In this document: positions 5,219-36,191 of the stretch, piece after piece | How the letters are laid out: each line of letters starts with the position of its first letter | Position numbering within the stretch: position 1 is the first letter of the stretch | Assembly (NCBI RefSeq): GCF_000331305.1 | Contig: NZ_KB217483.1 | Coordinates: 1,112,796-1,157,322 of the forward strand | Reading direction: 5' to 3' | Length of the DNA stretch: 44,527 nt | Origin: Calothrix sp. PCC 7103 | Lineage (GTDB): Bacteria > Cyanobacteriota > Cyanobacteriia > Cyanobacteriales > Nostocaceae | The notes under the pieces: generated by a model | The model's input: the letters and a program-made list of their open reading frames with translations, nothing else | Database searches by the model: none | What the model was told of the DNA's origin: nothing | Position numbers and translations under genes: made by a program

Positions 5219-5318
5219 TTGGCGCCTTTTATTTAAATCTTTTTACTAATTAAAACACATGTTTTGAAACTGGCGCCAATTAATTCCTTAAGAAAAAATT
5301 GCATAAGTTTACTGTAGG

Positions 5319-5338
5319 CAGAAATACTGATAAGTATA
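5319..5338 (+). promoter_or_regulatory. Conserved upstream element of exported genes (copy 1)
   Basis: The core cagaaatactgataagtata lies 48 bp before the TPS start at 5387, with TTGCATAAGTTT (5299-5310) just upstream of it. The same two-part arrangement precedes 18337, 21888, 33412 and 36238, and the core alone is clear before 12220. It is probably a promoter or activator site. I cannot assign -35 and -10 boxes with confidence. Confidence 0.65.
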
Positions 5339-5386
5339 AGTTTAATAACAAACTTTGATTATCATTATTATCTGGGGTAAAGTGCA

Positions 5387-8300
5387 ATGAATAAAAACTA
5401 CTGTTTAGTTCAAAAGCTTCTGCTGTGTGCCTTTCTCTCGCTTGGTAGTACTTCAGTTCATGCACAACTTACACCTGATAATACTTTAGGGACGGAAGCA
5501 TCAAAACTTACTCCAAATGTACTAATAAATGGTGCCAGTGCTGATTTAATTAATGGAGGCGCCTTACGTGGTAGTAATCTATTTCATAGTTTTAGTGAAT
5601 TCAATATTAAAGATGGACAAAGGGTTTATTTTGCCAATCCGTCTGGAGTTGTAAATATATTAACGCGCGTTACAGGTAGCAATGCGTCAAGTATTTTAGG
5701 GACGTTGGGTGTTGATGGCGCCGCAAACTTATTTTTGATTAATCCGAATGGTATTTTATTTGGTCAAAATGCGCGCCTTGATATAGGAGGTTCGTTTGTT
5801 GGGACAACAGCGAATGGTGTGCAGTTTGGTAATCAAGGTAACTTTAGTGCGACAAATGCGGAGGCGCCTGGGTTATTAACTATTAATCCTTCGGCATTGT
5901 TTTTTAACCAGATTAATCCTTTAGGCGGGATTCAAAATAATTCGGTGGCGCCTGTAGGTTTAGACCCGACAAATTTATTTGATGTTTTTGGCTTGCGAGT
6001 ACCCGATGGTAAAAGTTTGCTGCTAGTGGGAGGAAATGTCAACATGGATGGCGGTCAATTAAATGCCTATGGTGGAAGAGTTGAGTTAGGAGGTGTTTTG
6101 GAAACTGGGAATATAAATCTTCTCTTTGATGAGAATAATTTAAGGTTGGAATTTCCTGCTCAGGTGACTCGCGCAACGGTCGCCCTAACAAATCAAGCCA
6201 CGGTATATGCACCTGGTGCTGGTGGTGGTGATATTGTAATTAATGCTCGAAATATAGAGATTTCAGGAGAAAGTCGTCTTTTTGCTGGTATTAGTCAAGG
6301 TTTAGGAACACCTGAAACTTTTGCGGGAGACATTACCCTAAATGCGATTGAAGAAATTAAAGTTGCTGATTCTGGGAGTGGAATTGGTAATTTAGTGGGT
6401 TTGGGTTCAAAAGGCAATGGAGGTAACATTATTATTGATGCGGGTTCCTTGAAGTTACTGAATGGCACTCGAATTTCTGTCTCAACTTTTGGAGAAGGGA
6501 ATGCAGGGAATGTGACAGTGACTGCGAAAGATACTGTACAAGTTGCAGGTGCTGACATCTTCAGCACTGTGGAAGAAGGAGGTATAGGTAAGGGTGGCAA
6601 TATTAATATCAATGCTGCAACACTCTCACTGGCTGATGGCGCTCGAATTTCTGCCTCAACTCTTGGACAAGGGGATGCAGGAAACGTGATAGTGACTACG
6701 AAAGATGCTGTACAAGCTACAGATGCTACCATATCCAGCACAGTAGAAGCGGGGGGTGTGGGTAAAGGTGGTAATATCGATATCAATGCTGCAACACTGT
6801 CACTAAATGATATCGCTCAACTACAAACTGCTACTCGTGGTGCATCTGATACCCAACCAGCAGGTAGGGGAGATGCAGGAAATGTAAATGTGAAAGTTAC
6901 AGGCGTTGTTAATATTGCTGATAAAAAAGATATATTTCCTAGTGGGATTATCAGCAGTGTGGAAATCGGTACAGTAGGCAACGGGGGAAATATTACCATT
7001 GATGCTGGTTCTCTCAAATTACGAGATGGCGCCCGACTTGATGCCTCAACTTCTGGACAGGGGAATGCAGGAAATGTGAGGGTGATTGCAAAAGATGCCG
7101 TTTTCCTTACAGGTGGTGCTTTCATTTTTAGCACAGTTGAAACCGGGGGTGTCGGCAAGGGTGGTAACATTGATATCAATGCTGCAACACTATCACTGGC
7201 TGACGATGCCGAAATAGCAACTGCCATTCGTGGTGCATCTGATATTCAAGGGGCAGGTAAAGGAGATGCAGGGGACATCACCATTGATACAGGTTCCTTA
7301 AAGTTACAAAGTGGCGCTTCACTTGTGACATCAACCTATGGACAAGGAAATGCGGGAAATGTGAAGGTGAGTGCAAAAGATGCTGTTTTCCTTACGAATA
7401 ATTCTCTTATCGTTAGTACAGTAGAAGCAGGGGGTGTAGGAAAAGGTGGCAACATCGATATAAATGCTACTTCGTTAACTCTACAAGATGGCGTCAAATT
7501 ACTAACTGCTACTCGTATTGCATCTGATACTCAACCACCAGGTAAAGGGAATGCTGGGAACGTTAATTTGAATGTGACAGATGTTGTTGACATTCTTGGT
7601 GCAAAAAATGAAGATTTCAGCGGAATTTTTAGTCGTGTGGAAACAGGAACAGAAGGAAATGGAGGGAATATTACTATTGAAGCTGGTTTTATTAACTTAA
7701 GAGATTGGTCTGCACTTCAAGCTTCAACTTATGGACAAGGAAATGCTGGGAATTTGAAAGTGAGTAGTTCATCAGCTATTTCCCTCACAGATGAAGCTTA
7801 CATCCTTAGCACAGTGGAACCAGGAGGTGTGGGCAAGGGTGGTAATATCGATATCAACGCTGCAACCCTCTCGCTACAAAGGGGTGCCCAACTACTGACT
7901 ATTACTCGTGGTGCCTCTGGTACTCAACCAGCAGGAAAAGGGGATGCGGGGAACGTAAATGTGAATGTAACTGGTGTTGTTGATATTGCTGGTGTGGCGA
8001 CGAAAAATGGATTTCCCAGTTCGATTGGCAGTGTGGTAGATAAGGGCACAGCAGGCAATGGGGGTAATATTACTATTGATGCTGGTTCTTTCAAGTTGCA
8101 AGATGGAGCTTTACTCGCAGCCTCAACTTTAGGACAAGGTAATGCTGGTGTCATCAAAGTTAATGCTAGTGACTTTTTTACCATTTCTGGAAAAAGTGAT
8201 AGTTATATCAGCGGTATATTCGTTACATCCGGAAGTACAACAGGTAATACTGGAAATATTGGTGATGCTGGAAATATTATTGTAACCTCACCCAAAATCA

Positions 8301-9028
8301 CTCTAGACAACCAAGGTCTTCTAGCTGCCGATTCTGCATCGGGTAGCGGTGGTAACATCAACCTCAACAGTGATTTACTTTTATTAAGAAGAGGCGCCCA
8401 AATCTCAACCAACGCAGGTACAGAACAACTTGGTGGTGATGGAGGTAACATTGGTATTGATTCCCGTTTTATCGTCTCTGTCCCCAACGAAAACAGTGAT
8501 GTAACAGCCAATGCCTTTGCAGGTAAGGGTGGTAACGTAAATATCCGCGCGCAAGGTATCTTCGGTATTGAACCGCGCCTTCGAGAATCTCCAGAAACTA
8601 GCGATATCACTGCAAGCTCTCAACGTGGTGTTCAAGGAGAAGTTTCGATTACAGAACCAGATGTTGAGCCAGAACAAGGATTAATCGAACTACCAGAAGA
8701 AGTTATTGATGCTACTCGTCGAGTTGCTCAAATATGTCCAAGAGAACCCGGCGCCAAACCACTCGGAGAATTCACAATCACAGGACGCGGCAGTTTACCA
8801 CCCAGCCCCCTCGAACCATTACCTGGCGCCACTAACACAACCAAACTAGCAACTTTAGATAACAACAATACCAATGTATCAAACACAGCCCCTAACAAAG
8901 TGCCAAACGCAATAGTTGAAGCACAAGGCCTCGTTAAGAATGATGATGGGAGTTTTGAGCTTGTTGCAGTGGCGCCACAAACCACACTCAACGCGCGTGT
9001 CATAGCATCTGCATGTCCAACGAATTAA
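5387..9028 (+). CDS. Filamentous haemagglutinin-type TPS exoprotein, 1213 aa
   Basis: This large secreted or surface protein is of the two-partner secretion class (TpsA). A Sec signal peptide (residues 1-26, ending SVHA) leads into a TPS domain (about 27-190) with the hallmark NLFHSF, LINPNGILFGQ and LLTINPSALFF motifs. TPS domains are recognised by a TpsB outer-membrane pore. The centre (about 230-1000) is a Gly/Asn-rich right-handed beta-helix built from units such as GKGGNIDINAATLSL and GQGNAGNV. The conserved C-terminal region has ITEPDV, ELPEEV, CPREPGAKPLGEF and GRGSLPPSP and ends near a second Cys (ASACP). Start: ATG 5387, with GGGG 9 bases upstream. Its first 185 residues are almost identical to the copy at 33412, after which the two diverge. 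No TpsB gene is in the window. The role (adhesion, sheath or surface layer) is unproven. Confidence 0.9.
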   Translation: MNKNYCLVQKLLLCAFLSLGSTSVHAQLTPDNTLGTEASKLTPNVLINGASADLINGGALRGSNLFHSFSEFNIKDGQRVYFANPSGVVNILTRVTGSNASSILGTLGVDGAANLFLINPNGILFGQNARLDIGGSFVGTTANGVQFGNQGNFSATNAEAPGLLTINPSALFFNQINPLGGIQNNSVAPVGLDPTNLFDVFGLRVPDGKSLLLVGGNVNMDGGQLNAYGGRVELGGVLETGNINLLFDENNLRLEFPAQVTRATVALTNQATVYAPGAGGGDIVINARNIEISGESRLFAGISQGLGTPETFAGDITLNAIEEIKVADSGSGIGNLVGLGSKGNGGNIIIDAGSLKLLNGTRISVSTFGEGNAGNVTVTAKDTVQVAGADIFSTVEEGGIGKGGNININAATLSLADGARISASTLGQGDAGNVIVTTKDAVQATDATISSTVEAGGVGKGGNIDINAATLSLNDIAQLQTATRGASDTQPAGRGDAGNVNVKVTGVVNIADKKDIFPSGIISSVEIGTVGNGGNITIDAGSLKLRDGARLDASTSGQGNAGNVRVIAKDAVFLTGGAFIFSTVETGGVGKGGNIDINAATLSLADDAEIATAIRGASDIQGAGKGDAGDITIDTGSLKLQSGASLVTSTYGQGNAGNVKVSAKDAVFLTNNSLIVSTVEAGGVGKGGNIDINATSLTLQDGVKLLTATRIASDTQPPGKGNAGNVNLNVTDVVDILGAKNEDFSGIFSRVETGTEGNGGNITIEAGFINLRDWSALQASTYGQGNAGNLKVSSSSAISLTDEAYILSTVEPGGVGKGGNIDINAATLSLQRGAQLLTITRGASGTQPAGKGDAGNVNVNVTGVVDIAGVATKNGFPSSIGSVVDKGTAGNGGNITIDAGSFKLQDGALLAASTLGQGNAGVIKVNASDFFTISGKSDSYISGIFVTSGSTTGNTGNIGDAGNIIVTSPKITLDNQGLLAADSASGSGGNINLNSDLLLLRRGAQISTNAGTEQLGGDGGNIGIDSRFIVSVPNENSDVTANAFAGKGGNVNIRAQGIFGIEPRLRESPETSDITASSQRGVQGEVSITEPDVEPEQGLIELPEEVIDATRRVAQICPREPGAKPLGEFTITGRGSLPPSPLEPLPGATNTTKLATLDNNNTNVSNTAPNKVPNAIVEAQGLVKNDDGSFELVAVAPQTTLNARVIASACPTN

Positions 9029-9058
9029 TCTTATAGCAAAAATGCTGAAAACCCTTGA

Positions 9059-9093
9059 GGTTAAGAACCTCGCACTTGCTACGGTTCTTAACC
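9059..9093 (+). terminator. Hairpin downstream of the first TPS gene
   Basis: A perfect 11-bp stem, GGTTAAGAACC (9059-9069) with GGTTCTTAACC (9083-9093), lies 31 bp after the stop codon. No T-run follows, so it is either a non-canonical terminator or an mRNA 3' stabiliser. Confidence 0.55.
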
Positions 9094-9860: not shown

Positions 9861-9974
9861 CTCGTGAGCGTCTCGCTTCTAGAAAGGATATGTAAAAATA
9901 AATCAACTGCGCTTCGTCAATTAATGAATTAGCAGTAGCATTAAACGTCTTGGCGCCGTTGATACTCATGCATT

Positions 9975-12083: not shown

Positions 12084-12156
12084 TCAAACGAGTTCGGCGC
12101 TTGGTGTTACAGTTGTTTAAGAGCGCCTGAATTACCTGCATATCTAAGTACATACC

Positions 12157-12176
12157 CAGAAATAGTGATATATGTA
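12157..12176 (+). promoter_or_regulatory. Conserved upstream element of exported genes (copy 2)
   Basis: The core cagaaatagtgatatatgta lies 43 bp before the ATG at 12220 of a collapsed TPS gene. It agrees with the core at 21813-21832 except for one base. The upstream TTGCATAAGTT part is not clear here. Confidence 0.6.
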
Positions 12177-12219: not shown

Positions 12220-12703
12220 ATGAATTCAATCCTCAAAACACTCTTATCATCTTTGGTATACAGTTTTTTATTACTGACCGCACCAGCGAAAGCGCAAGTT
12301 ACGCCAAATACAACGTTGGGGAATGAAGCATCTCGTCTTACACCGAATCAAGTAATTAACGGCGCCAGTGCTGACCGTATTAATGGAGGCGCCCAACGCG
12401 GTATTAACTTGTTCCACAGTTTTGGCGAGTTTAATATTGGTAACGGGCAGAGGGTATATTTTGGTAATCCAGTTGGGGTAGAGAATATATTGACACGAGT
12501 AACAGGCGCCAGTACATCAAATATTTTGGGGACTTTGGGGGTGGATGGCGCCGCAAATCTTTTTTTAATTAATCCGAATGGGATTTTTTTTGGTCAGAAC
12601 GCGCTGGGTTAAGAATCAAGATGGGAGTTTGGAGCTTGTTGCAATGGCGCCCTCTTCTACACCAAGCGCGCGTATCTTAACACCTGTATGCCCAGATAGT
12701 TAA
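12220..12703 (+). pseudogene. Collapsed TPS exoprotein gene: 5' and 3' ends joined
   Basis: The first 128 codons are a complete TPS start: signal peptide (ending PAKAQ), NLFHSFGEFNIG and LINPNGIFFGQN. At about 12600 this is joined to the last 30 codons of the same gene type (VKNQDGSLELVAMAPSSTPS and a terminal PVCPDS with stop at 12701). The frame is lost at the junction, giving an early stop at 12610. Roughly 2-5 kb of beta-helix and C-terminal sequence is missing compared with intact members. The promoter element and start are intact, so a short exported TPS fragment of 130 residues could still be made. It is most likely a deletion derivative. Confidence 0.85.
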
Positions 12704-13240: not shown

Positions 13241-14386
13241 ATGAGCAAGAAATACTTCGTTAATCCTGAAATAATTTTATCATTCAGCAATGGAATTTCA
13301 TTAACACTGCCAGATTTACATGAAAGTTTTAACATTGATACGGCAACTCTTAATCTAATAACTGCAATCTGCGATGAAACTGGTCAAAAGATGGAAGTTC
13401 TTAAGCAAAATTTTAGTGAAGAGAGTCTTGAAGAAGCACAAGCAATCTTAGCAGAGAAAAAGATATTGCTCGATGAAAAGCCAAAACTAGGAATTGCTCA
13501 AGCATGGAAAGATTGGGGTGATGCAACTTGGTTTTTTCATAAAATGACTACAAATATCAAATTTGCAATCAGCGAACAAGAACAACTTGAGATTGCAAAA
13601 GAAATTACAGAAGTACCCAAGCCGCAACGTTTTAAATGTTTGTGTAATCAATGTAAAATTTCAATTAAGCTTCCTCAAGCAAGACCTATCTCTACAGATT
13701 CATTTTCACAAATTTTATTAAATAGGCGTACATGTCGTAATTTTATAGATATCGACATTAAATTAGCGGAATTATCTGATATACTTTTTTATACAGGTGG
13801 ATTAGTGTTTGAAAATGATACGGTCTATTTTGGTCAAGTCTCTAAAAAATGTGCGCCTTCTCCAGGTGCAATTCATGGAACCGAAATTTATTTAGCAATT
13901 CGTAAATGTCAAAATGTTGAGCCTGGTATTTATCACTATTGTGTCGAACACCATACTTTAAATCAAATATCCAGTCAAAACCCTGATAGTTTTATTCATT
14001 CTGCACTATTAGATCAAAATTATTTTGAATCTGCTTCGGTAGTTTTTATTTTTACTTGTGTTGCAGAACGATTTATGTGGAAGTATAAAACAGGCAGAAT
14101 TTACAGGCTTGCACATTTAGAAGTTGGACATTACTGTCAAAATCTACTTTTAACTGGTACTGCTTTAGGCTTAGGGGTATTTAGTACGGGTGCTTTAAAC
14201 GATGAATTAATTACCTTAACTCTTAATCTAGACCCAGTTAAAGAATTTGCGATGTATGCTGCGGGAACTGGTATTGAGTCAGAAGGAATTCCTTACTACC
14301 GTCCAGGTGTTGCAATGTCTACACACTTACCAGAAGGAGCAAGTCCCAAACTACCATATGCTGAAGGAGAGCTTCCGGGAAATTGA
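13241..14386 (+). CDS. SagB/ThcOx-type FMN-dependent dehydrogenase, 381 aa
   Basis: This is a nitroreductase-fold oxidase of the SagB type. Known members use FMN to oxidise azolines to azoles in ribosomal peptide maturation, although many are orphans. The N-terminal 100 residues form a separate small domain (ILSFSNGISLTLPDL onward) as in other SagB-type proteins. The catalytic part (about 155-350) shows LLNRRTCRNF (flavin-phosphate binding Arg), the diagnostic APSPGAIHGTEIYLAI, KYKTGRIYRLAHLEVGHYC and a QNLLLTGTALGLG helix. Two CxxC-like cysteines (KCLCNQCK, about 132-138) are an extra feature. No YcaO cyclodehydratase or precursor peptide with Cys/Ser/Thr core is next to it. It has no GGCGCC, unlike most of the window. 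Start: ATG 13241. Confidence 0.85.
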   Translation: MSKKYFVNPEIILSFSNGISLTLPDLHESFNIDTATLNLITAICDETGQKMEVLKQNFSEESLEEAQAILAEKKILLDEKPKLGIAQAWKDWGDATWFFHKMTTNIKFAISEQEQLEIAKEITEVPKPQRFKCLCNQCKISIKLPQARPISTDSFSQILLNRRTCRNFIDIDIKLAELSDILFYTGGLVFENDTVYFGQVSKKCAPSPGAIHGTEIYLAIRKCQNVEPGIYHYCVEHHTLNQISSQNPDSFIHSALLDQNYFESASVVFIFTCVAERFMWKYKTGRIYRLAHLEVGHYCQNLLLTGTALGLGVFSTGALNDELITLTLNLDPVKEFAMYAAGTGIESEGIPYYRPGVAMSTHLPEGASPKLPYAEGELPGN

Positions 14387-14959: not shown

Positions 14960-15091
14960 TTTTCAAGGAAGAGAATTCGATCAAAGTGAGTGTTTACCCT
15001 TAACTTCGAGGTTTGTTTATATGCTACCCTAAGTTCCGTCTACGGAGACATCACAATGAACTACTGATGATTCTTGAACATAAAGCGCAAT

Positions 15092-16510
15092 ATGAAAAAA
15101 CTCCGAAAATTTCTACTATTATCCCTTTTCCTATTAATGTTTGAGGGATTTAGTCTGCTTACTAGCCCGCCTGCTTCGGCTAAATCCCTCGTTCTCATTG
15201 GAGGTGGGTTAAAGCCAGTTCTAGAAAGTTGTACTGATGACCTAGGTACGAACGATCCCGGCTTTGTTCATACTCAAGCTATTTACCAGAAAATGATTGA
15301 ATTGGCAGGGGGTTCGTCCGTGGCAAAAATTGGGGTGATTACAGCAGCATCTGGCTCTCCTAACGATGACAAAAATGCTGGCGACCCCTGTAAAGCGAGT
15401 AATTACCGAGATAATGGAATCTATTACGTTAAAGTTTTCAAAAAATTGGGAGCTATCGATGCGACTGTGATTCCCATCGACATAGACCACATTTCTAATA
15501 AAAATAGCCCAGAAGTAGTTAAACAAATTAACAGCATGACGGGCTTTTTCTTTGGTGGTGGCGACCAATCCCGCCTTATTGATGCTTTCCTTAATAAAGA
15601 CAACACTGATAGCTCCGTACTAGCGGCTATTCGTCAAAGGTATGATTCGGGAGCGGCAATTTTTGGGACTAGTGCTGGGACGGCTATTCAAGTAGGTGGC
15701 AGCTACGTCAGGAATAACACCGTTAAGCTTCCCATGATTACTGGTGGTGAGAGCTATGAAGCTCTTGTAGATAAAAAACTGTGTGAACAGAACAGAGAAG
15801 CCCTCTCTAAGACAAACTACTGCCCCCATCAGAATGACCTTTCCTATTATCCTTTAGGAGGCTTTGGCTTCTTCAAATATGGCATTCTTGATACCCACTT
15901 TGCCGAACGAGGTCGGCAGGGGCGGTTCGTGCGATTGGCCTCATACAACTCGATTGACGATGCTTATGCACCAGACGAGAATACGGCCCTAGTCGTCACC
16001 GATGTTGACACCCCCAACGTTAAAATGTCTGTAGTCGGACAAGGAGGAGTCAATATTTTTGACCTTTCCAACGCCAGCCAAACGGGTGGTGCTTGTAGCC
16101 GTGCCGATGTCGATTATTGGAAAGTATGTGGGGTTAAATATACTTACCTGACTCTTGACGACCAGTACAACCCCCTAACAAAGACCGTCTCTATCGCCCG
16201 CTGGAAATTTTCCTTGACAGGTTTAGAACACTATGACCGAACCAAGTCTCCTAGCCAAGACATATTAAGCAGCCCCGACAATAATCACCGCTCCTTACCG
16301 CGTGAGTTGATAAAAGTGGCTGACGATTTATTCGACAGTCGCTCCACCGAAACTTATGGAGAGACCTACGAGCATAACCCTATCTTTCAAGTCACCCTGA
16401 CTAAAAACACAAGTTCTGGGTCAACTGGGTATTATGGCACTCAAGATAAGGAGAAGTTTTACTCCTTCAAAAATCTGTTGCTCGAATTTTATGTCGAGAA
16501 GCATAGTTAA
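15092..16510 (+). CDS. Secreted cyanophycinase-like serine peptidase (S51 family)
   Basis: This peptidase belongs to the family that hydrolyses cyanophycin (multi-L-arginyl-poly-Asp) to beta-Asp-Arg dipeptides. Starting at ATG 15092 it has 472 residues; a TTG six codons earlier is also in frame. A Sec signal peptide (to PPASA, about residue 30) makes it extracytoplasmic, unlike the cytosolic CphB of cyanobacteria. The nucleophile elbow GTSAGTA (Ser about 194), the GGGDQSRL loop (about 155-162) and ILDTHFAERGRQGRF (catalytic-type His about 269) are present. A C-terminal extension of about 130 residues contains paired cysteines (GGACSRADVDYWKVCG). Base composition is richer in GC than the neighbours and there is no GGCGCC, which suggests transfer. 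It sits where the 5' half of a TPS gene should be. Confidence 0.87.
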   Translation: MKKLRKFLLLSLFLLMFEGFSLLTSPPASAKSLVLIGGGLKPVLESCTDDLGTNDPGFVHTQAIYQKMIELAGGSSVAKIGVITAASGSPNDDKNAGDPCKASNYRDNGIYYVKVFKKLGAIDATVIPIDIDHISNKNSPEVVKQINSMTGFFFGGGDQSRLIDAFLNKDNTDSSVLAAIRQRYDSGAAIFGTSAGTAIQVGGSYVRNNTVKLPMITGGESYEALVDKKLCEQNREALSKTNYCPHQNDLSYYPLGGFGFFKYGILDTHFAERGRQGRFVRLASYNSIDDAYAPDENTALVVTDVDTPNVKMSVVGQGGVNIFDLSNASQTGGACSRADVDYWKVCGVKYTYLTLDDQYNPLTKTVSIARWKFSLTGLEHYDRTKSPSQDILSSPDNNHRSLPRELIKVADDLFDSRSTETYGETYEHNPIFQVTLTKNTSSGSTGYYGTQDKEKFYSFKNLLLEFYVEKHS

Positions 16511-18182: not shown

Positions 18183-18273
18183 TATTAACTATTTACAGGG
18201 CGCCTATACACGTTTTGAAATTGGCGCCAAATTATTTTAATATAGACCGAGCAATGCATAAGTTAATACTACT

Positions 18274-18293
18274 TAGAAATAGTGTTATACGTA
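18274..18293 (+). promoter_or_regulatory. Conserved upstream element of exported genes (copy 3)
   Basis: The core tagaaatagtgttatacgta, with ATGCATAAGTTAA just upstream (18254-18266), ends 43 bp before the ATG at 18337. This gene is not a TPS protein, so the element is shared beyond the TPS family. Confidence 0.55.
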
Positions 18294-18336: not shown

Positions 18337-19011
18337 ATGAGTAAAAATCTAGCTTTGCTGCAAAAGCTTTTATTATGTGTTTTTTTCATAACTATTAGTA
18401 CATCAGCACGAGCGCAAACACTCAATAATAGCTCTCAAGCAGAAATATCAAAACTTGCAGTAAGCAGCAGCCGTGCCAAACAGTATTCTGCTTCTTCTAA
18501 AAATTCAAATGGTAATGGATGTTATAGAAGTCAAGACAACAAAGATAGCTTATTGTACACAAGCTTTGATGGTAGCTATACTGCCTTATTTCCTGGCAAG
18601 CCAAAAGAAGAAGTTGATAAGTCTACCCAAACAAAATTTATTACTACAAGAGTAGCCTATCGAACCCCAGACAATAAATATTATTACACAATAGAAACTA
18701 ATAAGTATTTAAAAAAATTATCTAAAAAAGAAATAAATGCACTACTGAAGTTTCTTTATGAAGATAATAGTACTGGTACAGAAGGATTTGAATATAAAAG
18801 GAGATTTATTTTCAATGGTTATGATGCTCATGAATATATAACTTATGATAATAAATGGAATGGAGCAGTTAAAACAAGAATCTTTTTTGATGTACGCCAA
18901 TCAACTTTATATAAAATATCAGTTGGCACAGGAGGAGAAGGTATCCCATCTGGAAATTTAAATACTCCGGAAATAGAATCTTTTCTTGATTCGTTAAAAT
19001 TAAAGAAATGA
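18337..19011 (+). CDS. Exported protein of unknown function, 224 aa (intact copy)
   Basis: A Sec signal peptide (residues 1-26, ending SARA) precedes a Ser/Asn-rich linker (about 30-65) and a folded part (about 72-224): LYTSFDGSYTALFPGKPKEE, then YYYTIETNKYLKKLSKKE, FIFNGYDAHEYITYDNKWN, TRIFFDVRQSTLYKISVGTG and the ending IESFLDSLKL. The FPGKP, Tyr-rich strand and FLDSLKL pattern recurs in many cyanobacterial exported proteins that I cannot name further. AAGGA lies 9 bases before ATG 18337. Its signal peptide resembles those of the neighbouring TPS proteins and it has the same upstream element, so the two are probably co-regulated. A sister copy at window start is broken by an IS. Confidence 0.8.
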   Translation: MSKNLALLQKLLLCVFFITISTSARAQTLNNSSQAEISKLAVSSSRAKQYSASSKNSNGNGCYRSQDNKDSLLYTSFDGSYTALFPGKPKEEVDKSTQTKFITTRVAYRTPDNKYYYTIETNKYLKKLSKKEINALLKFLYEDNSTGTEGFEYKRRFIFNGYDAHEYITYDNKWNGAVKTRIFFDVRQSTLYKISVGTGGEGIPSGNLNTPEIESFLDSLKLKK

Positions 19012-19538: not shown

Positions 19539-21503
19539 ATGCCTAGGATTCGCTTTGCCATTTCTGCCATCATCAGCTTTATCGTTGTTATAGTAGCTTC
19601 TTTCTTCACTCCTAGCACCTTATTAGCCGCTCGCACAATAGCGACAACTCCATCTGCTATACAGATTGAACCTGGTTATCATGACACACAAAATGCACTT
19701 GACTTTGCGTCTCAAAAACTTTCAAAACCATCAATCCAAAATAACACTTTTTCTATTTCAAATTCAACCTACTTAACTCAAAACAACAATAAATCTAATT
19801 TTGATCCATGTAATTCTGAATCACACAAACGGTTATTGCGATTAAGCAGACCTAATGGTCTTCCTGACAAAGTACAAACATCTCTTACAGGTGAAAAAGC
19901 TGAACTACAGCCAATCGCAGACGGTTCAGGGGAATATGTATATGATGAATATAAAATTGTCATCGATAAAATGCCCCCAGGAATGACACCGGAAAAGTTT
20001 CTTAGCGAAATGCTGAAAAACATTAACGGAAAGGTCAATGACTCAGAATTCAACGATATTAACGAATTTAAGCGCCGAAGCAATAAGATTCCTAAGCTTG
20101 GAGATATCTATGATATCGACATACTTGGACCAGATAACGGCAGCGTCGTGTTAAGCGACCGCAGTGACTCATACTTTGTGTTTAGCACTATTAAAACACC
20201 TGAAACTGGCTCTCATCCAGAACATGGTTCACGCGAGTTTGGGTTTGAACGAAATTCTGATGGGAGCGTAACTTTTTACACTAGAGGCGTGTCAAGACCC
20301 GAATATGAAGTGAGCGGCTTGGTAGGAAGTTTTTTCCAAAAGCGTAGTTGGACAAGTTTAATGCGCGGGATTGGTAATACTATTAATAATGCAGGTGGTC
20401 AAACACGCCCAAGCTCATTTAAAGAATTTAAATATGAGCAGCAGAACCCTCCTAAATGTAACAATAATGGAGGGAGTAACCCCAATAAAAAATTAAAACA
20501 AGGCAAGAGTTATGGTGATCCTCACTTAATTACTTTTGATGGATTAAGTTATAGCTTTCAGACAGTTGGGGAATTTATCCTTGTTAAATCCAACGACGGT
20601 AAATTTGAAGTTCAAGTACGCCATGCACCTGTCAATTCATCACTATCACTGAATAGCGCTGTAGCCATAAAAGTGGGTAATGACCGTGTGACATTTTATT
20701 CAAAAGACTTTCCTGACTCTAATATCAGCACTCCCCTAAGAATTAATGGCAAACCTACTCTAATCCAAGGTGATTCTCTATCACTATCAGGTGGTAACAC
20801 TATAGCTAGAAGTGGTAATACCTATATAGTTAATTTATCTACGGGTGAGAAGGTTGTAGTAGACACAGCCAAATTTGGAGATAATTTTTATTTCAATGTC
20901 TCACCTTTTGTCTTAGATTCACAACCTGAGCGCTATAGTGGCTTACTCGGTAATGTTAATGGTAATCCCAAGGATGACCAACAAATTCGTGGTGGTGCTA
21001 TTTTATCTTCAAAATCAACCTATGGAGATGTAAAGCAGGTGTTAAACTTAGTCGGAGTTGGGCAACTTCCTTTTTCTCTAGATGCAGCTGAAAAACTTTA
21101 TTTTGACCAACTTTATAAGGATTTTGCCAACAGTTGGCGCCTTAGCCAAAAAGAGTCGCTGTTTGATTATTTGCCTAATAAGACCACAGAAAGTTATACA
21201 AATCGCAATTTCCCAGATAAGTATCTCAAACTAGAAATGTTATCCACAGAACAGATAAAAAAGGCACGTTCTAAATGTGAAGCAGCTAAGGTTAGTGAAG
21301 ATACGATGGAGGGGTGTATTTTTGACGTTGGATTTACAGGATTTTCTGAGTTCGCTTACGCTACAGCGGAAATAAATGGTTACCTAGAAACCGTTAATAA
21401 ACTTTTCCCTAGTTTAAATATTCCTACACCTGAAAGGGCAGTTGATAATGTAATAAACCGGGTTAAACCCAAAGTTTGCTTACCTTTTGTAGGCTGTTTA
21501 TAA
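19539..21503 (+). CDS. Exported protein with von Willebrand factor type D (VWD) domain, 654 aa
   Basis: The N-terminus (IRFAISAIISFIVVIVASFF) is a signal peptide or membrane anchor. Residues about 60-310 form a region I cannot assign, with a conserved-looking core (PGMTPEKFLSEMLKNINGKV) and a Pro/Asn linker (PPKCNNNGGSNP). Residues about 321-490 are a VWD domain: YGDPHLITFDGLSYSFQTVG at its start, EVQVRH, and SGLLGNVNGNPKDD at its calcium-binding end. VWD domains act in extracellular assembly or adhesion. The last 160 residues contain two cysteines in a short loop (SKCEAAKVSEDTMEGCIFD) and a second pair at the very end (VCLPFVGC). It has only one GGCGCC (21136), unlike the TPS genes around it. 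Surface or extracellular location is inferred. Confidence 0.85.
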   Translation: MPRIRFAISAIISFIVVIVASFFTPSTLLAARTIATTPSAIQIEPGYHDTQNALDFASQKLSKPSIQNNTFSISNSTYLTQNNNKSNFDPCNSESHKRLLRLSRPNGLPDKVQTSLTGEKAELQPIADGSGEYVYDEYKIVIDKMPPGMTPEKFLSEMLKNINGKVNDSEFNDINEFKRRSNKIPKLGDIYDIDILGPDNGSVVLSDRSDSYFVFSTIKTPETGSHPEHGSREFGFERNSDGSVTFYTRGVSRPEYEVSGLVGSFFQKRSWTSLMRGIGNTINNAGGQTRPSSFKEFKYEQQNPPKCNNNGGSNPNKKLKQGKSYGDPHLITFDGLSYSFQTVGEFILVKSNDGKFEVQVRHAPVNSSLSLNSAVAIKVGNDRVTFYSKDFPDSNISTPLRINGKPTLIQGDSLSLSGGNTIARSGNTYIVNLSTGEKVVVDTAKFGDNFYFNVSPFVLDSQPERYSGLLGNVNGNPKDDQQIRGGAILSSKSTYGDVKQVLNLVGVGQLPFSLDAAEKLYFDQLYKDFANSWRLSQKESLFDYLPNKTTESYTNRNFPDKYLKLEMLSTEQIKKARSKCEAAKVSEDTMEGCIFDVGFTGFSEFAYATAEINGYLETVNKLFPSLNIPTPERAVDNVINRVKPKVCLPFVGCL

Positions 21504-21762: not shown

Positions 21763-21812
21763 CTATTGGCGCCCTTTAATTATTAAAAAAAACTGTATAA
21801 GTTAGTTCTAGT

Positions 21813-21832
21813 CAGAAATACTGATATATGTA
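21813..21832 (+). promoter_or_regulatory. Conserved upstream element of exported genes (copy 4)
   Basis: The core cagaaatactgatatatgta, with CTGTATAAGTTAG at 21793-21805, ends 55 bp before the ATG at 21888. Confidence 0.62.
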
Positions 21833-21887: not shown

Positions 21888-24800
21888 ATGAGTAAGAAAC
21901 CGGGTTTTGTACACTCGCTTTTGATATGCACCTTTTTATCGCTTGCTAGTACTAGAGTTGATGCACAGATTACACCTGATAATACCTTGGGTGCAGAAGC
22001 ATCTAAACTCATTCCAATTGGCGAACAAGCTGGTATCTCTCTAGATTTAATTAATGGTGGCGCCAAACGGGGTAATAATCTCTTTCATAGTTTTACAGAA
22101 TTTAATATCAAAGATGGACAAAGTGTGTATTTTGCCAGTCCCTCTGAAGTAATTAATATATTGACGCGCGTTACAGGTGGGAACGCATCAAATATTTTAG
22201 GGACGTTGGGTGTTGATGGTGGTGCCAATCTATTTTTAATTAATCCCAACGGTATTTTATTTGGTCAGAACGCTTCTTTGGATATTCGAGGTTCTTTTAT
22301 AGGGACGACTGCAAACGGCGTACAGTTTGGTAATCAGGGAAATTTTAGTGCAACTGACCCTGTTAACCCTGGTTTATTAACTATTAATCCTTCTGCATTG
22401 TTTTTTAATCAGATTAATCATAAAAGCGCGATTGTAAATAAATCGGTGGCGCCTGCGGGTATAGACCCAGCGGGTTTTGATGCATTTGGTTTACGAGTTC
22501 CAGATGGTAAAAGCTTACTGTTGGTAGGTGGTGATATCAGCATGGAGGGAGGGCAGTTAAATGCTCTTGGTGGAAGAGTTGAGTTAGGAGGTGTTTCGGA
22601 AGCTGGGAATATAAATCTTCTTTTTGATGGGAATAACTTCAGCTTGGGATTTCCTGAAATAGTGACTCGTGCATCGGTATCCTTAACAAATCAAGCCAGA
22701 GTATATGTAGAAGGTGCTAGTGGTGGTGATATTGCTCTTTATGCTCAAAATATAGAAATTAGTAACGGAAGTCGTCTTATTGCTGGTATTGCTGAAGGTT
22801 TGGGGGCGCCTATATCTATTGCAGGGGATATTACGCTGAATGCAACTGGAGAAATCAAAATTACTGATTCTGGGAGCATAATTGGTAATTTAGTACGATT
22901 GGGTTCACAAGGTAATGGAGGTAACATCACCTTTGATGCTGGTTCTTTCTCATTAAGAGATGGCGCTCAAATTACTGCCTCAACCTTTGGAAATGGTTCG
23001 GCTGGTAATGTAACGGTGAGTGCAAAAGGTGGTGTTTCCCTTACAGCTAATGCTAGTATACTCAGCACAGTGGAATTAGAGGGTACGGGTACTGGGGGCA
23101 ATATCAATATCAATGCTGCAACCCTTTCACTACTTTCGGGCGCCCAACTACTGACTACTAATCGTCGTGTATCTGATACTCAACTAGTAGGGCAAGGGGG
23201 TGCGGGAAATGTGAATGTTAAGGTTGCGGGTGTTGTCGATATTGCTGGTGTCAAAAATGGATTTTCCAGTGGAATTTTTAGCAGAGTCGGAATAGGTGCA
23301 GTAGGGAACGGCGGTAATATTACCATTGATGCTGGTTCTTTTCAGTTACATTCGGGAGCTGTAATCACTGCCTCAACCTTTGGAAATGGTTTGGCTGGTA
23401 ATGTAACGGTGAGTACAAAAGGTGGTGTTTCGCTTGCAGATGCTAACATCTTCACCACAGTAGGAGCGAACGGTGTGGGTAAGGGTGGCAATATCGATAT
23501 TAATGCTGCAACACTATCACTACTTTCGGGCGCTCAACTACTAACTGCTACTCGTGAAGCATTTAATAATCTACCAGCAGGTAGGGGGGATGCAGGGGAT
23601 GTGAATATTAAGGTTGCAGGTGTTGTTGATATTGCTGGTGTCAAAAATGGACTTTCCAGTGCAATTTTCAGCAGAATGGAAACAGGTACAGTAGGTAATG
23701 GCGGTGATATTACCATTGATGCTGGTTCTTTCTCATTAAGAGATGGCGCTCAAATTACTGCCTCAACCTTTGGACAGGGGAATGCAGGAAATGTGACGGT
23801 GAACGCAAAAAGTGCCGTTTTGCTTTCAGATGCTAACATCTTCACTACACTCGAAGCAGGGAGTCTGGGTAAAGGTGGTAATATCGATATCAATGCTGCA
23901 ACATTATCACTACTTTCGGGCGCTCAATTACTAACTGCTACTCGTGAAGCATTTGATACTCAAATGGCAGGACAAGGAGATGCGGGAGACGTAAATGTTA
24001 AAGTAACAGGTGTTGTTGATATTGCTGGTGTCAAAAATGGACTTTCCAGTGCAATTTTCAGCAGAGTGGAAACAGGTACACAAGGCAATGGGGGTAGTAT
24101 TACTATTGATGCGAATTCCTTCTATTTACGAGACGGCGCCTTATTAGACGCACGCACTGAAAATAACAATAGAGGTGGCAATATTACCGTAAATGTAAAT
24201 CTGTTTGAAACAACCCAAGGTGGACAAATTACCACCAATACATTAAGCAATGGACGTGCGGGTAAAATCACAATCAACGCTGCTGAAAAAGTACTTATTA
24301 GCAGCAATGACCCAAATTATAATAACCGACTGACTAATTTTCCCAGCAGTATCGGAAATATCGGCGCCAACGCTGGATTTTTCGTTAACTCCACAGGTTC
24401 AGGAACCACTGGCGACATTGAAATAAACTCACCCAATATTACCCTAGACAACCAAGGTAAGCTTCAAGCTAATTCTACATCCGGTAACGGTGGTAACATC
24501 AACCTTAAAAATAACAATTTACTTTTATTAAGAAGAGGCGCCCAAATTTCCACCAACGCAGGTACACAACAACAAGGCGGTGATGGGGGTAACATTGATA
24601 TTGATTCCGGTTTTATCGTTGCTATCCCAAAAGAAAACAGTGATATAACAGCCAACGCTTTTACTGGTAGAGGTGGTAACGTTAATATCCGCGCGCAGGG
24701 TCTTTTTGGTATCGAACCGCGTGCGTTACCATCTTCGGAAACTAGCGATATCACTGCAAGTTCTGACCGTGGTGTTCAAGGACAAATATCTATTACAGAA

Positions 24801-25175
24801 CCAGATGTTGAACCAGAACAAGGATTAATTGAGCTTCCTGAAGAAGTAGTTGATGCTACACGTCGAGTTGCTCAAATTTGTCCAAGATTTCCCGGCGCCA
24901 AACCGTTAGGAGAATTTACCATCACTGGACGCGGTTCTTTACCACCCAGCCCCCTCGAAGCTTTACCTGGTACAACAAATACTACCAAGCTGGCGACTTT
25001 AGATAGTAACAATACTCATGTATCAAATATAGTTCTTAACGAAGCGCAAAATACGATAGTTGAAGCACAAGGGTGGGTTAAAAATGATGATGGAAGTTTA
25101 GAGCTTGTTGCAATGGCGTCGAATACTACACTCCTTTCACCTGTTGTAACATCTGTATGTACAAATATTCACTAG
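21888..25175 (+). CDS. Filamentous haemagglutinin-type TPS exoprotein, 1095 aa
   Basis: This is an intact TpsA-type protein. The signal peptide ends near RVDA (about residue 26). The TPS domain (about 27-195) has NLFHSFTEFNIK, LINPNGILFGQNASL and LLTINPSALFFNQ. The beta-helix (about 240-880) is a mosaic of DAGSFSLRDGAQITASTFG, VDIAGVKNG and NIDINAATLSLLSGAQLLT units that recur three or four times at unequal spacing, unlike the strict lattice at 37261. The C-terminal region has ITEPDVEPEQGLIELPEEV, CPRFPGAKPLGEF and GRGSLPPSP, and a final Cys (TSVCTN). GGGG lies about 10 bases before ATG 21888. It needs a TpsB pore that is not encoded here. Confidence 0.9.
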   Translation: MSKKPGFVHSLLICTFLSLASTRVDAQITPDNTLGAEASKLIPIGEQAGISLDLINGGAKRGNNLFHSFTEFNIKDGQSVYFASPSEVINILTRVTGGNASNILGTLGVDGGANLFLINPNGILFGQNASLDIRGSFIGTTANGVQFGNQGNFSATDPVNPGLLTINPSALFFNQINHKSAIVNKSVAPAGIDPAGFDAFGLRVPDGKSLLLVGGDISMEGGQLNALGGRVELGGVSEAGNINLLFDGNNFSLGFPEIVTRASVSLTNQARVYVEGASGGDIALYAQNIEISNGSRLIAGIAEGLGAPISIAGDITLNATGEIKITDSGSIIGNLVRLGSQGNGGNITFDAGSFSLRDGAQITASTFGNGSAGNVTVSAKGGVSLTANASILSTVELEGTGTGGNININAATLSLLSGAQLLTTNRRVSDTQLVGQGGAGNVNVKVAGVVDIAGVKNGFSSGIFSRVGIGAVGNGGNITIDAGSFQLHSGAVITASTFGNGLAGNVTVSTKGGVSLADANIFTTVGANGVGKGGNIDINAATLSLLSGAQLLTATREAFNNLPAGRGDAGDVNIKVAGVVDIAGVKNGLSSAIFSRMETGTVGNGGDITIDAGSFSLRDGAQITASTFGQGNAGNVTVNAKSAVLLSDANIFTTLEAGSLGKGGNIDINAATLSLLSGAQLLTATREAFDTQMAGQGDAGDVNVKVTGVVDIAGVKNGLSSAIFSRVETGTQGNGGSITIDANSFYLRDGALLDARTENNNRGGNITVNVNLFETTQGGQITTNTLSNGRAGKITINAAEKVLISSNDPNYNNRLTNFPSSIGNIGANAGFFVNSTGSGTTGDIEINSPNITLDNQGKLQANSTSGNGGNINLKNNNLLLLRRGAQISTNAGTQQQGGDGGNIDIDSGFIVAIPKENSDITANAFTGRGGNVNIRAQGLFGIEPRALPSSETSDITASSDRGVQGQISITEPDVEPEQGLIELPEEVVDATRRVAQICPRFPGAKPLGEFTITGRGSLPPSPLEALPGTTNTTKLATLDSNNTHVSNIVLNEAQNTIVEAQGWVKNDDGSLELVAMASNTTLLSPVVTSVCTNIH

Positions 25176-28417: not shown

Positions 28418-28743
28418 TCAGTAAATCACAAAGTTTTTTAGAAGCTTTGATAGTTGAGTATTTATGTATTTCAGTCAAGATTTGTAGAAATTGGAGCTTC
28501 AATGTTTAAGCCAAAGGTTCCAGCTTTACTAGAGAGTACAAGGTTAAGAATTTTGTTAGCATCATCTTGGGAAAACTCATGCTGGGAGTCCCATTCCCCA
28601 AGCACTGATAGGAACTTTACATTGTTTATCTTGGCTAAAGAAACTAAACGCCCCCAGAATGTTGGAAAACTTTCCCGTTTATATAGCTTACTTTCTTTTT
28701 TGTTTGCTTCAAGAGCTATCTTTGCTTGATCAAGGGCAACTGA
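28418..28743. repeat. 326-bp repeat, source copy
   Basis: This is the partner of 14588-14913. It covers the 3' end of the DUF4157 gene and 53 bp beyond it, and forms the junction with the broken 434-aa-type gene. This copy is probably the origin because the whole gene is present here. Confidence 0.9.
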
Positions 28744-29910
28744 GTTCTGTAGGTCTTCTCCTCTATTAAGATTTATGTTTAGCTCTTTCATAGAAATATG
28801 AGCGCTGAGTGGATTGACTAAGTTTAGGGAAATCTTTTCTGCATTGCTGGTTAGTTGACGTAGAACAGGTAATCGCATTGCTATAACTGCATATTGACCT
28901 AATGCGGCACCGTAACCTAACCCCTGTTTATTGCCTGGAACTTCTAGTCCATCTGGCTTCAGAATTTTTTGCTCACTATAGTAGAATATTGAAATGTGCC
29001 CTTTTTTCTCACCATCTCTATCTCTTAAAGTTAATAACCAAGTACGATCGCTCATCGCGCTGGGTTCTACTTCGTTGATGTCTATATAATTTCCTTCTAA
29101 ATTTCCTGACAATTTCCAAGTGTAAATAGGGTCACTACTTGATTTCAATTTTGGTTTTGTCTTTAAAATTGCCCTTTGTATAACTCCGTCGTGTTGTTGC
29201 ACCACGTGTGTTAATTCATGAGCAATTAACTCTTTCCCAGCATGACTTTGAGGGTTATATTCTCCTTGGCGAAAGAAAATATCTTGCCCTGTAGTAAATG
29301 CTTTTGCCTGAATTGATTGATTCAACTGGTCAGATTTTGCATCACTGTGAACTTTTACTTTGCTAAAGTCAAAACCAAATGCCTGTTCCATTGGCTTGCG
29401 GATGTCATTTGATAAAGCTTGTCCGTTACCCCGTGATTGTTGAATTGATGCTTCCAAATCCGCTGGTACAGATGTTTCGTCTATTATACCTACCTGTGTG
29501 GTTTTTTTGATTAGTTCTTCAGGCTTTTGTTGGCGCCGCATATAACCTGAAATTGGTTTCATCAAGACCATTTCCTCTTCTTCTGGTAATAAGTCCCGTT
29601 GAATGGTTTTGCCGCTTTGAGGTGAGTTGATTTGCTGTACTACTTGGTGCCCTACAGAGTCTGCTTCTTCTTCGTATCTATCTCCTGCCTTTCCAATTGT
29701 TAATTTAGTCTGAATTGGTAAGTAAGTACGCGAATTTTGTACAGGTGTTTTAGTAAAATCGTGTGCAAATTTAGACTCTTTTAACTGATAATTTTCTGGC
29801 TCTGGTATTACTTGAATATTTGTGGTATTACTTCGAGATACAATAAATGAGTTATTATGTACTAATGTAGATATTTTAGAGCTATCAGCTTGAACTTTTT
29901 TAAATGTCAC
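28471..29910 (-). CDS. DUF4157 (eCIS core domain) protein, 479 aa
   Basis: Residues about 150-241 form a DUF4157 domain, with DIRKPMEQAFGFDFSKVKVH, AFTTGQDIFFRQGEYNP and the metal-binding HELTHVVQQ (His231, Glu232, His235). The domain is common in bacteria and is often found in proteins linked to extracellular contractile injection systems (eCIS). The first 150 residues are polar and disordered (with KLTIGKAGDRYEEEADSVG, the typical pre-domain motif). The C-terminal 220 residues are an unassigned module (NKQGLGYGAALGQYAVIAM; SLNLVNPLSAHISMKELNIN), which could be an effector. The start is GTG at 29910. No contractile-tail genes are in the window, so it is an orphan here. Its 3' end has been copied to 14588. 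Confidence 0.82.
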   Translation of the reverse strand: MTFKKVQADSSKISTLVHNNSFIVSRSNTTNIQVIPEPENYQLKESKFAHDFTKTPVQNSRTYLPIQTKLTIGKAGDRYEEEADSVGHQVVQQINSPQSGKTIQRDLLPEEEEMVLMKPISGYMRRQQKPEELIKKTTQVGIIDETSVPADLEASIQQSRGNGQALSNDIRKPMEQAFGFDFSKVKVHSDAKSDQLNQSIQAKAFTTGQDIFFRQGEYNPQSHAGKELIAHELTHVVQQHDGVIQRAILKTKPKLKSSSDPIYTWKLSGNLEGNYIDINEVEPSAMSDRTWLLTLRDRDGEKKGHISIFYYSEQKILKPDGLEVPGNKQGLGYGAALGQYAVIAMRLPVLRQLTSNAEKISLNLVNPLSAHISMKELNINLNRGEDLQNSVALDQAKIALEANKKESKLYKRESFPTFWGRLVSLAKINNVKFLSVLGEWDSQHEFSQDDANKILNLVLSSKAGTFGLNIEAPISTNLD

Positions 29911-33304: not shown

Positions 33305-33343
33305 TTTATTCCTTAAGAAAAAATTGCATAAGTTTACTGTAGG

Positions 33344-33363
33344 CAGAAATACTGATAAGTATA
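33344..33363 (+). promoter_or_regulatory. Conserved upstream element of exported genes (copy 5)
   Basis: The core cagaaatactgataagtata is identical to that at 5319, with TTGCATAAGTTT at 33324-33335; it ends 48 bp before ATG 33412. The IS1380 element ends just 39 bp upstream, so anything further upstream has been cut off. Confidence 0.65.
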
Positions 33364-33411
33364 AGTTTAATAACAAACTTTGATTATCATTATTATCTGG
33401 GGTAAAGTGCA

Positions 33412-36013
33412 ATGAATAAGAACTACTGTTTAGTTCAAAAGCTTCTGCTGTGTGCCTTTCTCTCGCTTGGTAGTACTTCAGTTCATGCACAACTTACACC
33501 TGATAATACTTTAGGGACGGAAGCTTCTAAACTTACTCCAAATGTACTAATAAATGGCGCCAGTGCTGATTTGATTAATGGTGGCGCCTTACGTGGTAGT
33601 AATCTATTTCATAGTTTTAGTGAATTCAATATTAAAGATGGACAAAGGGTTTATTTTGCCAATCCGTCTGGAGTAGTAAATATATTAACGCGCGTTACAG
33701 GTAGCAATGCGTCAAGTATTTTAGGGACGTTGGGTGTTGATGGTGCCGCAAACTTATTTTTGATTAATCCGAATGGTATTTTATTTGGTCAAAATGCGCG
33801 CCTTGATATAGGAGGTTCGTTTGTTGGGACAACAGCGAATGGTGTGCAGTTTGGTAATCAAGGTAACTTTAGTGCGACAAATGCGGAGGCGCCTGGTTTG
33901 TTGACTATTAATCCTTCGGCGTTATTTTTTAATCAGATTAATCCTAGTGCTGGAATTCAAAATAATTCGGTGGCGCCTGCTGGTGTAGACCCAGCAGGTT
34001 TTGACGCATTTGGTTTGCGAGTCTTTGACGGTAAAAGCTTACTGCTAGTGGGTGGAGATGTGAGTATGGATGGGGGACAATTAAATGCTCTTGGCGGAAG
34101 AGTTCAGCTAGGAGGTGTTTCGGCGCCTGGAAATGTTTTTATTTTCTCTGACGGAAATAATTTGAGATTAGGATTCCCTGAAAATGTAACTCCTGCTTCG
34201 GTATCCTTGATAAATCAAGCTGGGGTATATGTAGAAGCTTCGGGTGGCGGTAATATTGCAGTTCATGCTCGAAATATAAAAATGGACGGAGGAAGTCTCT
34301 TAAGTGCTGGTATTGGGGAAAGTTTGGGGTCACCTGATACTAGTGCAGGAGATATTACTTTGACCGCAACAGAAGAAATAGTTATAAATGATAGGAGCGG
34401 AATTCGCAATTTAGTGCGTAAGGATTCACAAGGCAATGGAGGCAATATTGGCATTAATGCAGGTTCCTTAAAATTACAAGATGCAAGCTTATTCGAGTTA
34501 CAAGATGGTGCCCAAGTTTTTACTTCAACCTCTGGAAAAGGGAACGCAGGAAATGTGACGATAACTACAAAAAATACCATTTCACTTACAGGTAATGTTA
34601 ATATCTCCAGTGCGGTGGAAGCAGGGGCTGTTGGTAAGGGTGGTAATATCGATATGGGTGCTGCAAACGTAACACTACTCAATGGTGCCCAAATTGCAGC
34701 CTCAACTCGTGGACAGGGGAATGCGGGGAATGTGACGATAATTGCAGAAGATACTGTTTCCCTTGTTGCAAATCCTTCTTTAATCTTCACTACGGTAGAA
34801 GCAGGGGCTGTTGGTAATGGAGGCAATATTGATATTAATGCTGCAAACCTAATACTACAAGATGGCGCCCAACTAGCAACTGCTACCCGTCGTGCATCTG
34901 AGACTCAAGGAGCAGGACAGGGAGATGCAGGAAATATAAATGTAAAAGTTACAGATGTTGTTGATATTACTGGTATGAAAAATACATCTTCCACTGGAAT
35001 TTTCAGTTTAATGCAAACTGATACAAAAGGTAGTGGAGGTAATATCACGATTGATGCTGGCTCCCTCAAGTTACAAGATGTCGTTCAACTTTCTGCCTCA
35101 ACCGATGGGCAAGGAAATGCCGGAAATGTGACAATAACTGCAAAAGATACTGTTTTCCTCGTAGGTGAAGCTGACATCTTAAGTACAGTAGAAAAAAGTG
35201 GTGTGGGTAAGGGTGGTAATATCACGATTGATGCTGGCTCTCTCAAGTTACAAGATGGCGCTCGACTTTCTGCCTCAACCGATGGGCAAGGAAATGCCGG
35301 AAATGTAATAATAACTGCAAAAGATGCTATTTCGCTTGCAAGCAATGTTGATATTTTTAGCGCAGTGGAGACTGGGGCTATTGGTAAGGGTGGTAATATC
35401 GATATAAATGCTACAAACATAACACTACGTGATGGCGCTCAAATTGCAGCCTCAACTCGTGGACAGGGAAATGCAGGGAATGTAACGGTAGTTGCTAAAG
35501 ATACTGTTACAAGTGCAAATAGTTCTCTCATACTTAGCACAGTGGAAGCAGGGGCTGTTGGGAAGGGAGGCAATATTGATATTAATGCTGCAAACCTGAT
35601 ACTACGAAGTGGCGCCCAACTAGCAACTGCTACCCGTCGTGCATCTGAGACTCAAGGAGCAGGACAAGGAAATGCAGGAAATGTGAATGTAAAGGTTACA
35701 GGTCTTGTGGATATTGCTGGTTTGAAAAGTACATCTTCCACTGGGATTTTTAGTTTGATACAAACCGATACAAAAGGTAATGGAGGTAATATTACCATTG
35801 ATGCTGGCTCCCTCAAGTTACAAGATGGCGCTCGACTTTCTGCCTTAACTAGAGGACAAGGGAATGCCGGAAATGTGACAATAAGTGCAAAGTGCAATAG
35901 TTGAAGCACAAGGCCTCGTTAAGAATAAAGATGGGAGTTTAGAGCTTGTTCCATTGGCGCCAGTAACTACGCCAAACGCGCATATTGTAGCATTTGCATG
36001 TCCAACTAATTAA
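33412..36013 (+). pseudogene. TPS exoprotein gene truncated by a deletion frameshift (830 codons)
   Basis: The signal peptide, TPS domain (about 27-190; NLFHSFSEFNIK, LINPNGILFGQ) and a long beta-helix (units such as GKGGNIDINAANLILQDGA and GQGNAGNV) are intact for 830 codons, to a stop at 35904. The C-terminal region is missing: at about 35888 the sequence jumps to the last 40 codons of the family in another frame, IVEAQGLVKNKDGSLELVP, ending at 36013. The junction agtgcaaag is a sequence shared by the helix repeats and the C-terminal part. The first 185 residues are nearly identical to the gene at 5387. It could still be exported as a truncated protein lacking the conserved Cys-containing end. 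Confidence 0.87.
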
Positions 36014-36171
36014 ATATTGAAGTAATCATTGCAAAGAATGGCGCCCTTAAACTTACAACAAATTTAATTTCTTTAAATACGTATAAACAATCTTTACGCT
36101 TACAGAATACAATCGTACAATCGACAAATTTTTTTCATTCCTTAAGAAAAAATTGTATAAGTTTGTTCTAG

Positions 36172-36191
36172 CTGAAAATACTGATAAATAT
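36172..36191 (+). promoter_or_regulatory. Conserved upstream element of exported genes (copy 6)
   Basis: The variant core ctgaaaatactgataaatat, with TTGTATAAGTTTG at 36154-36166 and attccttaagaaaaaattg before it as at 5283, ends 46 bp before ATG 36238. Apart from it, 36014-36237 has only a GGCGCC at 36040. Confidence 0.6.

Follow-up and report, generated by a model that had tools for sequence, protein, structure and literature searches.

A rigidly spaced two-box element upstream of TPS exoprotein genes and other genes in Calothrix sp. PCC 7103, and its reading as the putative promoter of a secretion and competition regulon

Described promoter elements and the six sites of the window

Among the described systems closest to the element discussed here, the SigF promoter of Synechocystis takes the form TAGGC-N15-GGTAA, and two-component systems of the NarL/LuxR type can be autoregulated. 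In the available excerpts of the respective sources, the J-Box of SigJ promoters is given as GGGaAtacT with an absolutely conserved GGG and a weak, AT-rich -35 region (PMC6495340, PMC7204071), and the SigF promoter is likened to it (PMC6495340). The NtcA box is GTAN8TAC (PMC3898017). In NtcA-activated promoters it lies about 41.5 bp upstream of the transcription start.

The window, i.e., the whole stretch of 44,527 nucleotides of Calothrix sp. PCC 7103 analysed here, carries a two-box element at all six of the places reported in the initial annotation, with cores at 5319, 12157, 18273/4, 21813, 33344 and 36172/3. The cores had been described as lying 43-55 bp ahead of an ATG, and all six are indeed found there, the distances from core end to ATG being 48, 43, 43, 55, 48 and 45 bp in the same order. 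All boxes and genes are on the forward strand. The first TPS exoprotein gene (5387..9028; PF05860, E=2.4e-50) is preceded by box A TTGCATAAGTT at 5299..5309 and box B AGAAATACTGATA at 5320..5332. Ahead of the truncated TPS gene at 12220..12612, which encodes 130 aa and comprises the first 102 of 252 domain positions, box A is degenerate (CTGCATATCTA, 12136..12146) and separated by one extra spacer base from box B AGAAATAGTGATA (12158..12170). The third site, with box A ATGCATAAGTT at 18254..18264 and box B AGAAATAGTGTTA at 18275..18287, belongs to a 224-aa exported gene (18337..19011), which combines a TPS-type signal peptide with a body that has lipoprotein-looking relatives elsewhere. The remaining three TPS exoprotein genes are those at 21888..25175 (PF05860, E=2.9e-52; box A CTGTATAAGTT at 21793..21803, box B at 21814..21826), at 33412..35904 (E=9.1e-50; box A at 33324..33334, box B at 33345..33357) and at 36238..42126 (1962 aa, E=8.3e-52; box A TTGTATAAGTT at 36153..36163, box B GAAAATACTGATA at 36174..36186). 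The upstream box had been given as TTG[CT]ATAAGTT in five cases, which is exact in three (5299, 33324 and 36153), while the first base differs at 18254 and 21793.

Several further features of the window may be recorded. Genes for an eCIS-core protein (28471-29910), a nitroreductase-family protein (13241-14386), a peptidase S51 family protein (15074-16510) and a VWD-domain protein (19539-21503) are interspersed with the TPS genes, and GGCGCC occurs 100 times, as opposed to about 2.4 occurrences expected from base composition. Between the element and the ATG of several TPS genes lie GATTATCATTATTATC-type stretches (e.g. 5356-5376), which we take to resemble Fur/Zur boxes.

Genome-wide matches, spacing and the promoter reading

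Throughout the host genome (11.58 Mb, 12 contigs), the pattern TTGCATAAGTT-N10-AGAAATA with at most two mismatches is matched 27 times, compared to one match for the reversed pattern. In 60 genomes, host included, the corresponding figures are 225 and 24. When the gap between the boxes was left free from 4 to 24, 97 matches were obtained in 120 genomes as opposed to 11 for the reversed control, 73 of them with a gap of 11, five with 10, one with 12 and 18 scattered. The sites, their enrichment and their spacing are direct observations. Gaps of 18-23 hold 14 of the 97 matches, with five at gap 21; these may belong to an alternative arrangement of the boxes or to an unrelated repeat. Since the search pattern was derived from the window sites, any site that it retrieves is bound to look like it; a matrix trained on the non-TPS sites puts five of the six window sites at top rank, a ranking that is not independent proof, these training sites having been collected with the same window-derived pattern.

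With respect to gene context, seven of the 27 host sites lie before TPS genes, one before each of the two copies of the 224-aa gene, ten before other codirectional genes, and eight are without a clear codirectional start, three of which overlap ORFs of 124-276 aa. A codirectional start is found within about 170 bp at 19 of the 27 sites, counted for forward-pattern sites only. Among 40 further sites in relatives, of which that at L476 was not located, five have no ORF of at least 45 aa starting within 350 bp and five more have only ORFs of less than 80 aa. At L110, L145, L249, L254 and L265, the element is common to five genomes of the genus with no ORF of at least 60 aa downstream, and may be a remnant there or belong to a gene for a small RNA; an Rfam scan of L110 gave no match.

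Taken together, the element most plausibly constitutes a promoter of the -35/extended -10 type belonging to an undescribed secretion and competition regulon, a reading to which we assign a probability of roughly 0.7 on the basis of sequence. In this directional, rigidly spaced promoter, box A TGCATAAGT would occupy the region around -35 and box B AGAAATA that around -10, with 11 bp separating the two, and genes across the whole genome would form its regulon in this cyanobacterial family. From the end of box B to a clear start codon there are as little as 30-32 bp, which must accommodate the predicted transcription start and any ribosome site; transcription would thus start shortly past box B, and box B is for this reason probably located near -10 and box A near -35; nearer ATGs occur in two relatives (9 and 14 bp), where likelier starts lie further down. 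The layout at 5387, TTGCAT-N18-AATACT, conforms to the sigma70 type, as do the fixed gap and the proximity of most host sites to codirectional starts. Against this reading, the T with which a -10 hexamer should end (-7 T) is kept in the TPS sites and not in the wider set. The sequence aAtacT is present in most of 14 aligned host sites and not in the wider set. We infer that a single alternative factor reads the element as a core promoter, and that the regulon serves surface attachment and competition.

A simple palindrome, or a single transcription factor reading of box B (ATACTGATAAGTAT at 5387), was considered and discarded, as the right half differs among sites. In the relative G002, a group II intron (L266, about 152-2400; Rfam RF00029) is located in a TPS 5' leader about 10 bp past box B, and the same intron start follows just after the element in another TPS leader of this genome (L128). 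The position of the intron gives a hint of a predicted transcription start before the insertion point.

Descent and constraint at TPS genes and the 224-aa gene

The host genome contains 64 TPS-domain matches, 62 of them above the curated cut-off, and most TPS genes are devoid of the element. The whole-genome search with a site profile (R1, for which five window sites were used) that had been suggested in the initial annotation gave 14 sites at E <= 1.4e-4, namely 12 ahead of TPS genes and two ahead of the 224-aa gene and its broken twin. When upstream regions were picked by protein alone, nine of 61 host TPS upstreams matched the two-box pattern with at most three mismatches, compared to a mean of 0.01 and a maximum of one match in a Markov control of 200 resamplings. 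In a tree of 60 TPS domains, which left out three matches shorter than 300 nt and L093, the 12 element-bearing rows require three changes, while shuffled rows require 11.3 on average and none of 500 shuffles was as low; the element-bearing TPS genes thus form nearly one clade.

The upstream DNA of the window genes had been described as otherwise different, which is only partly true: the upstreams of 5387 and 33412 are the same sequence over 104 bp before the ATG, which makes the sites at 5299 and 33324 copies, and several TPS genes have common short flanks. Judged by sequence, element sharing inside the window is largely a matter of descent, and the TPS genes of one clade would have inherited the element through duplication. 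Just upstream of the 33412 promoter lies a transposase element (PF13701, 31348-33305; presumably IS1380-like) with TTTA on either side, and the flank beyond it resembles the upstream region of 5387.

Conservation beyond descent was assessed in 35 aligned upstreams from several genera. In the 183 gene pairs whose fourfold sites have diverged furthest, to 30% identity, the identity of box B is 73%, compared to 30-34% for the flanks and 40% for box A; these figures are inflated by the selection of rows for having the element, while the ungapped alignment on box B lowers the value for box A and leaves spacing shifts unaligned. Box B would have persisted although changes in the flanks and at silent sites reached saturation. 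Among 79 TPS loci of named genomes, 14 score at least 9 bits with the host matrix, the next score being 1.7, and at four of these 14 no matching box A accompanies box B.

The 224-aa gene had been regarded as unrelated to TPS genes, and this holds for its body, which is non-TPS, but not for its signal peptide. The N-terminus of the protein (MSKNLALLQKLLLC) resembles that of the TPS protein 5387 (MNKNYCLVQKLLLC), and the first 81 nt of the gene are 57-63% identical to three window TPS genes and 38% to 12220; for the next 319 nt, the sole comparison, with 5387, gives 29% identity. Relatives of the protein in other genomes have lipoprotein-like N-termini (six readable from a start), and within 200 bp upstream of their genes even the most similar stretch departs from the element at 7-9 of 18 positions. 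Because the N-terminus is of TPS type here while the relatives are lipoprotein-like and without the element, the gene probably gained the element and the TPS-type signal peptide together, as a captured 5' module. A non-TPS gene would in this way have acquired promoter and signal peptide as a single unit. A second, IS-broken copy of the 224-aa gene is located at the left edge of the window (1-1910), with the same element upstream, just left of the window (C12:1112515).

Members of the putative regulon, candidate readers and known systems

The recurrence of a particular gene set behind the element is directly observed. In the host, the ten other genes comprise those for a HisKA_3 kinase, an exported-type 190-aa protein, a Tll0287-like protein, a protein of about 450 aa, a CAP protein, NHLM ABC2, NHLM ABC1, a TPR protein and a tiny ORF, as well as a CTB-family bacteriocin gene, which is followed by a bacteriocin-transport-associated gene. 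A CHAT/TPR protein adjoining the host kinase has a weaker site upstream (gene L365:4907-7618, E 0.053). Genes behind the element in relatives encode a VWA protein, TPR-repeat proteins, two subtilases, a glycosyl hydrolase, an AAA-like protein and more TPS proteins. The notion that the exported proteins of relatives are CHAT-like was rejected, since Pfam assigned the ten tested proteins, several of which are incomplete because their stretch ends within the gene, to TPR (six), subtilase (two), glycosyl hydrolase and AAA-like families and none to CHAT; a CHAT domain is shown for the host gene L365:4907-7618 only. At L362, L109/L363 and L251, sites lie ahead of a TPR gene and a tiny exported-type ORF, followed in the host by a GTPase-like gene. 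Beyond the TPS genes and the 224-aa gene, the regulon would thus include the operon of the HisKA_3 kinase and a LuxR-type regulator, CTB bacteriocin and NHLM export, TPR, CAP and other exported-type proteins and the protein of about 450 aa. In the initial annotation, one transcription factor or sigma factor had been proposed to run a whole exported-protein set. Enrichment over the reversed pattern, rigid spacing and conservation ahead of unrelated genes in other genera support one factor acting on a secretion-type set that has non-TPS members; on the other hand, the sharing within the window largely reflects descent, most TPS genes lack the element, and the set also has the kinase/regulator operon, transporters and the protein of about 450 aa.

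The latter, a conserved cyanobacterial protein, is the boldest candidate for the reader of the element. The element is found 164 bp upstream of its gene in G000 and G003-G006 and 165 bp upstream in G001, where the gene was found by protein first and the element has three mismatches; motif-found sites at this gene occur in G002, G009, G018, G061, G076 and G085, that of G076 being read as a 75-aa ORF only. The predicted fold is weakly sigma-like. No sigma model was among the Pfam matches listed for the family, and with NCBIfam, sigma70-ECF was hit in four of 48 members, at an E of 0.018 or weaker, while a further pair of sigma models hit two members and one, respectively, all below the cut-off. 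Similarly, hhalign of the family against four E. coli sigmas gave 0.3% probability, a PDB sequence profile search yielded no sigma, and an RpoE homolog search returned nothing useful. It is conceivable, though doubtful, that the protein is a divergent sigma70-like factor that reads the element and drives its own gene as well as a secretion and competition regulon of TPS adhesins, CTB/NHLM export and TPR proteins, with the two-component system among its targets.

A second candidate emerges from the kinase operon. The kinase ortholog is present in 10 of 60 genomes by protein search (E of at most 2.2e-94, the next hit being at 4.9e-64); in all ten the element lies 32-98 bp upstream of the matched kinase start with 0, 1, 1, 0, 0, 0, 2, 3, 1 and 3 mismatches of 18, as opposed to 6-8 mismatches at all ten paralog-only loci scored (20 of 30 kinase loci were covered by the scoring). 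A LuxR-type regulator follows the kinase in nine of the ten genomes, the exception being G005. The boxes could accordingly be an operator of this response regulator, which would activate the set along with its own operon, and kinase-bearing genomes have on average 15.8 matches, whereas the 50 genomes without the kinase average 1.34 (p 3e-7, Mann-Whitney), or, outside the genus, 10, 4 and 6 matches against 26 genomes of the family (p 0.005), in tests that ignore relatedness while seven of the ten kinase genomes are of one genus. However, G018 has eight matches (reversed 0; four inspected, each with one mismatch and three with a codirectional gene) without an ortholog of kinase or regulator, G017 is devoid of the kinase ortholog and nevertheless has a site before the same gene as G009, G085 and G090, and G005 keeps sites though no regulator ortholog was found there. 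Moreover, no clear inverted repeat is discernible by eye in the element, and we consider this explanation unlikely. Far less credible still is a similarity due exclusively to shared descent of duplicated, functionless 5' ends, a possible refutation named in the initial annotation. It would account for the 104-bp identity of 5387 and 33412, the three changes on the TPS tree and the TPS-type signal peptide of the 224-aa gene, but not for the same boxes with the same spacing ahead of unrelated genes in several genera, nor for the persistence of box B past saturation of flanks and silent sites. Pure duplication was rejected in view of the element at unrelated genes in other genera, even though much of the similarity within the window is descent.

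A variant of the SigJ J-Box or of the SigF promoter of hormogonium development must be weighed as well. The aAtacT of the J-Box GGGaAtacT (PMC6495340, PMC7204071) recurs within box B at the TPS sites, and adhesin and surface genes would suit hormogonia. Yet none of the 35 aligned sites has GGG at the position of this trio, 25 of them having AGA instead, and box A is conserved, in contrast to the weak AT-rich -35 region of the J-Box. Exact J-Boxes furthermore form a separate enriched set in the host (88 vs 31), and among the 30 of these 88 sites that were inspected, a box-A-like stretch (2 of 11 mismatches) was seen at one, the others having at least three mismatches; such a variant is consequently improbable. 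The NtcA box was rejected, as GTA stands at the relevant place in three of the 35 aligned sites. The initial annotation knew of no named element with this sequence, and none was found among the literature matches listed: motif strings searched in the PMC literature, and TGCATAAG combined with a cyanobacter word, returned no cyanobacterial promoter paper among the matches listed, the latter judged by titles and abstract starts, and topic searches returned no such regulon among the matches listed.

If the promoter reading is right, large cyanobacteria of the filamentous type have one promoter class that joins adhesins and TPR proteins with the export of peptide bacteriocins and with a sensor system. 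The element would then serve as a search key for the regulon elsewhere. Two specific proteins would be candidates for its control, and a conserved protein annotated as hypothetical would gain a testable function.

Compared with known systems, the element resembles autoregulated NarL/LuxR-type systems in lying before a kinase/regulator operon and before likely target genes, and is unlike them in that it also occurs in genomes without orthologs of kinase and regulator. Like the SigF promoter of Synechocystis, it would be a two-box promoter of the alternative-sigma type, whereas neither box matches. Its likeness to the NtcA box consists of GTA-N8-TAC over spacer and box B at 5387. Of the described elements considered, the SigJ J-Box comes nearest, its aAtacT being shared by the TPS version; like the SigJ-dependent promoter of Nostoc punctiforme (PMC6495340), the element would represent a cyanobacterial promoter class with a widely distributed regulon, but it has no GGG extended -10 and instead features a conserved upstream box, a rigid 11-bp gap and a -7 T that is variable in the wider set.
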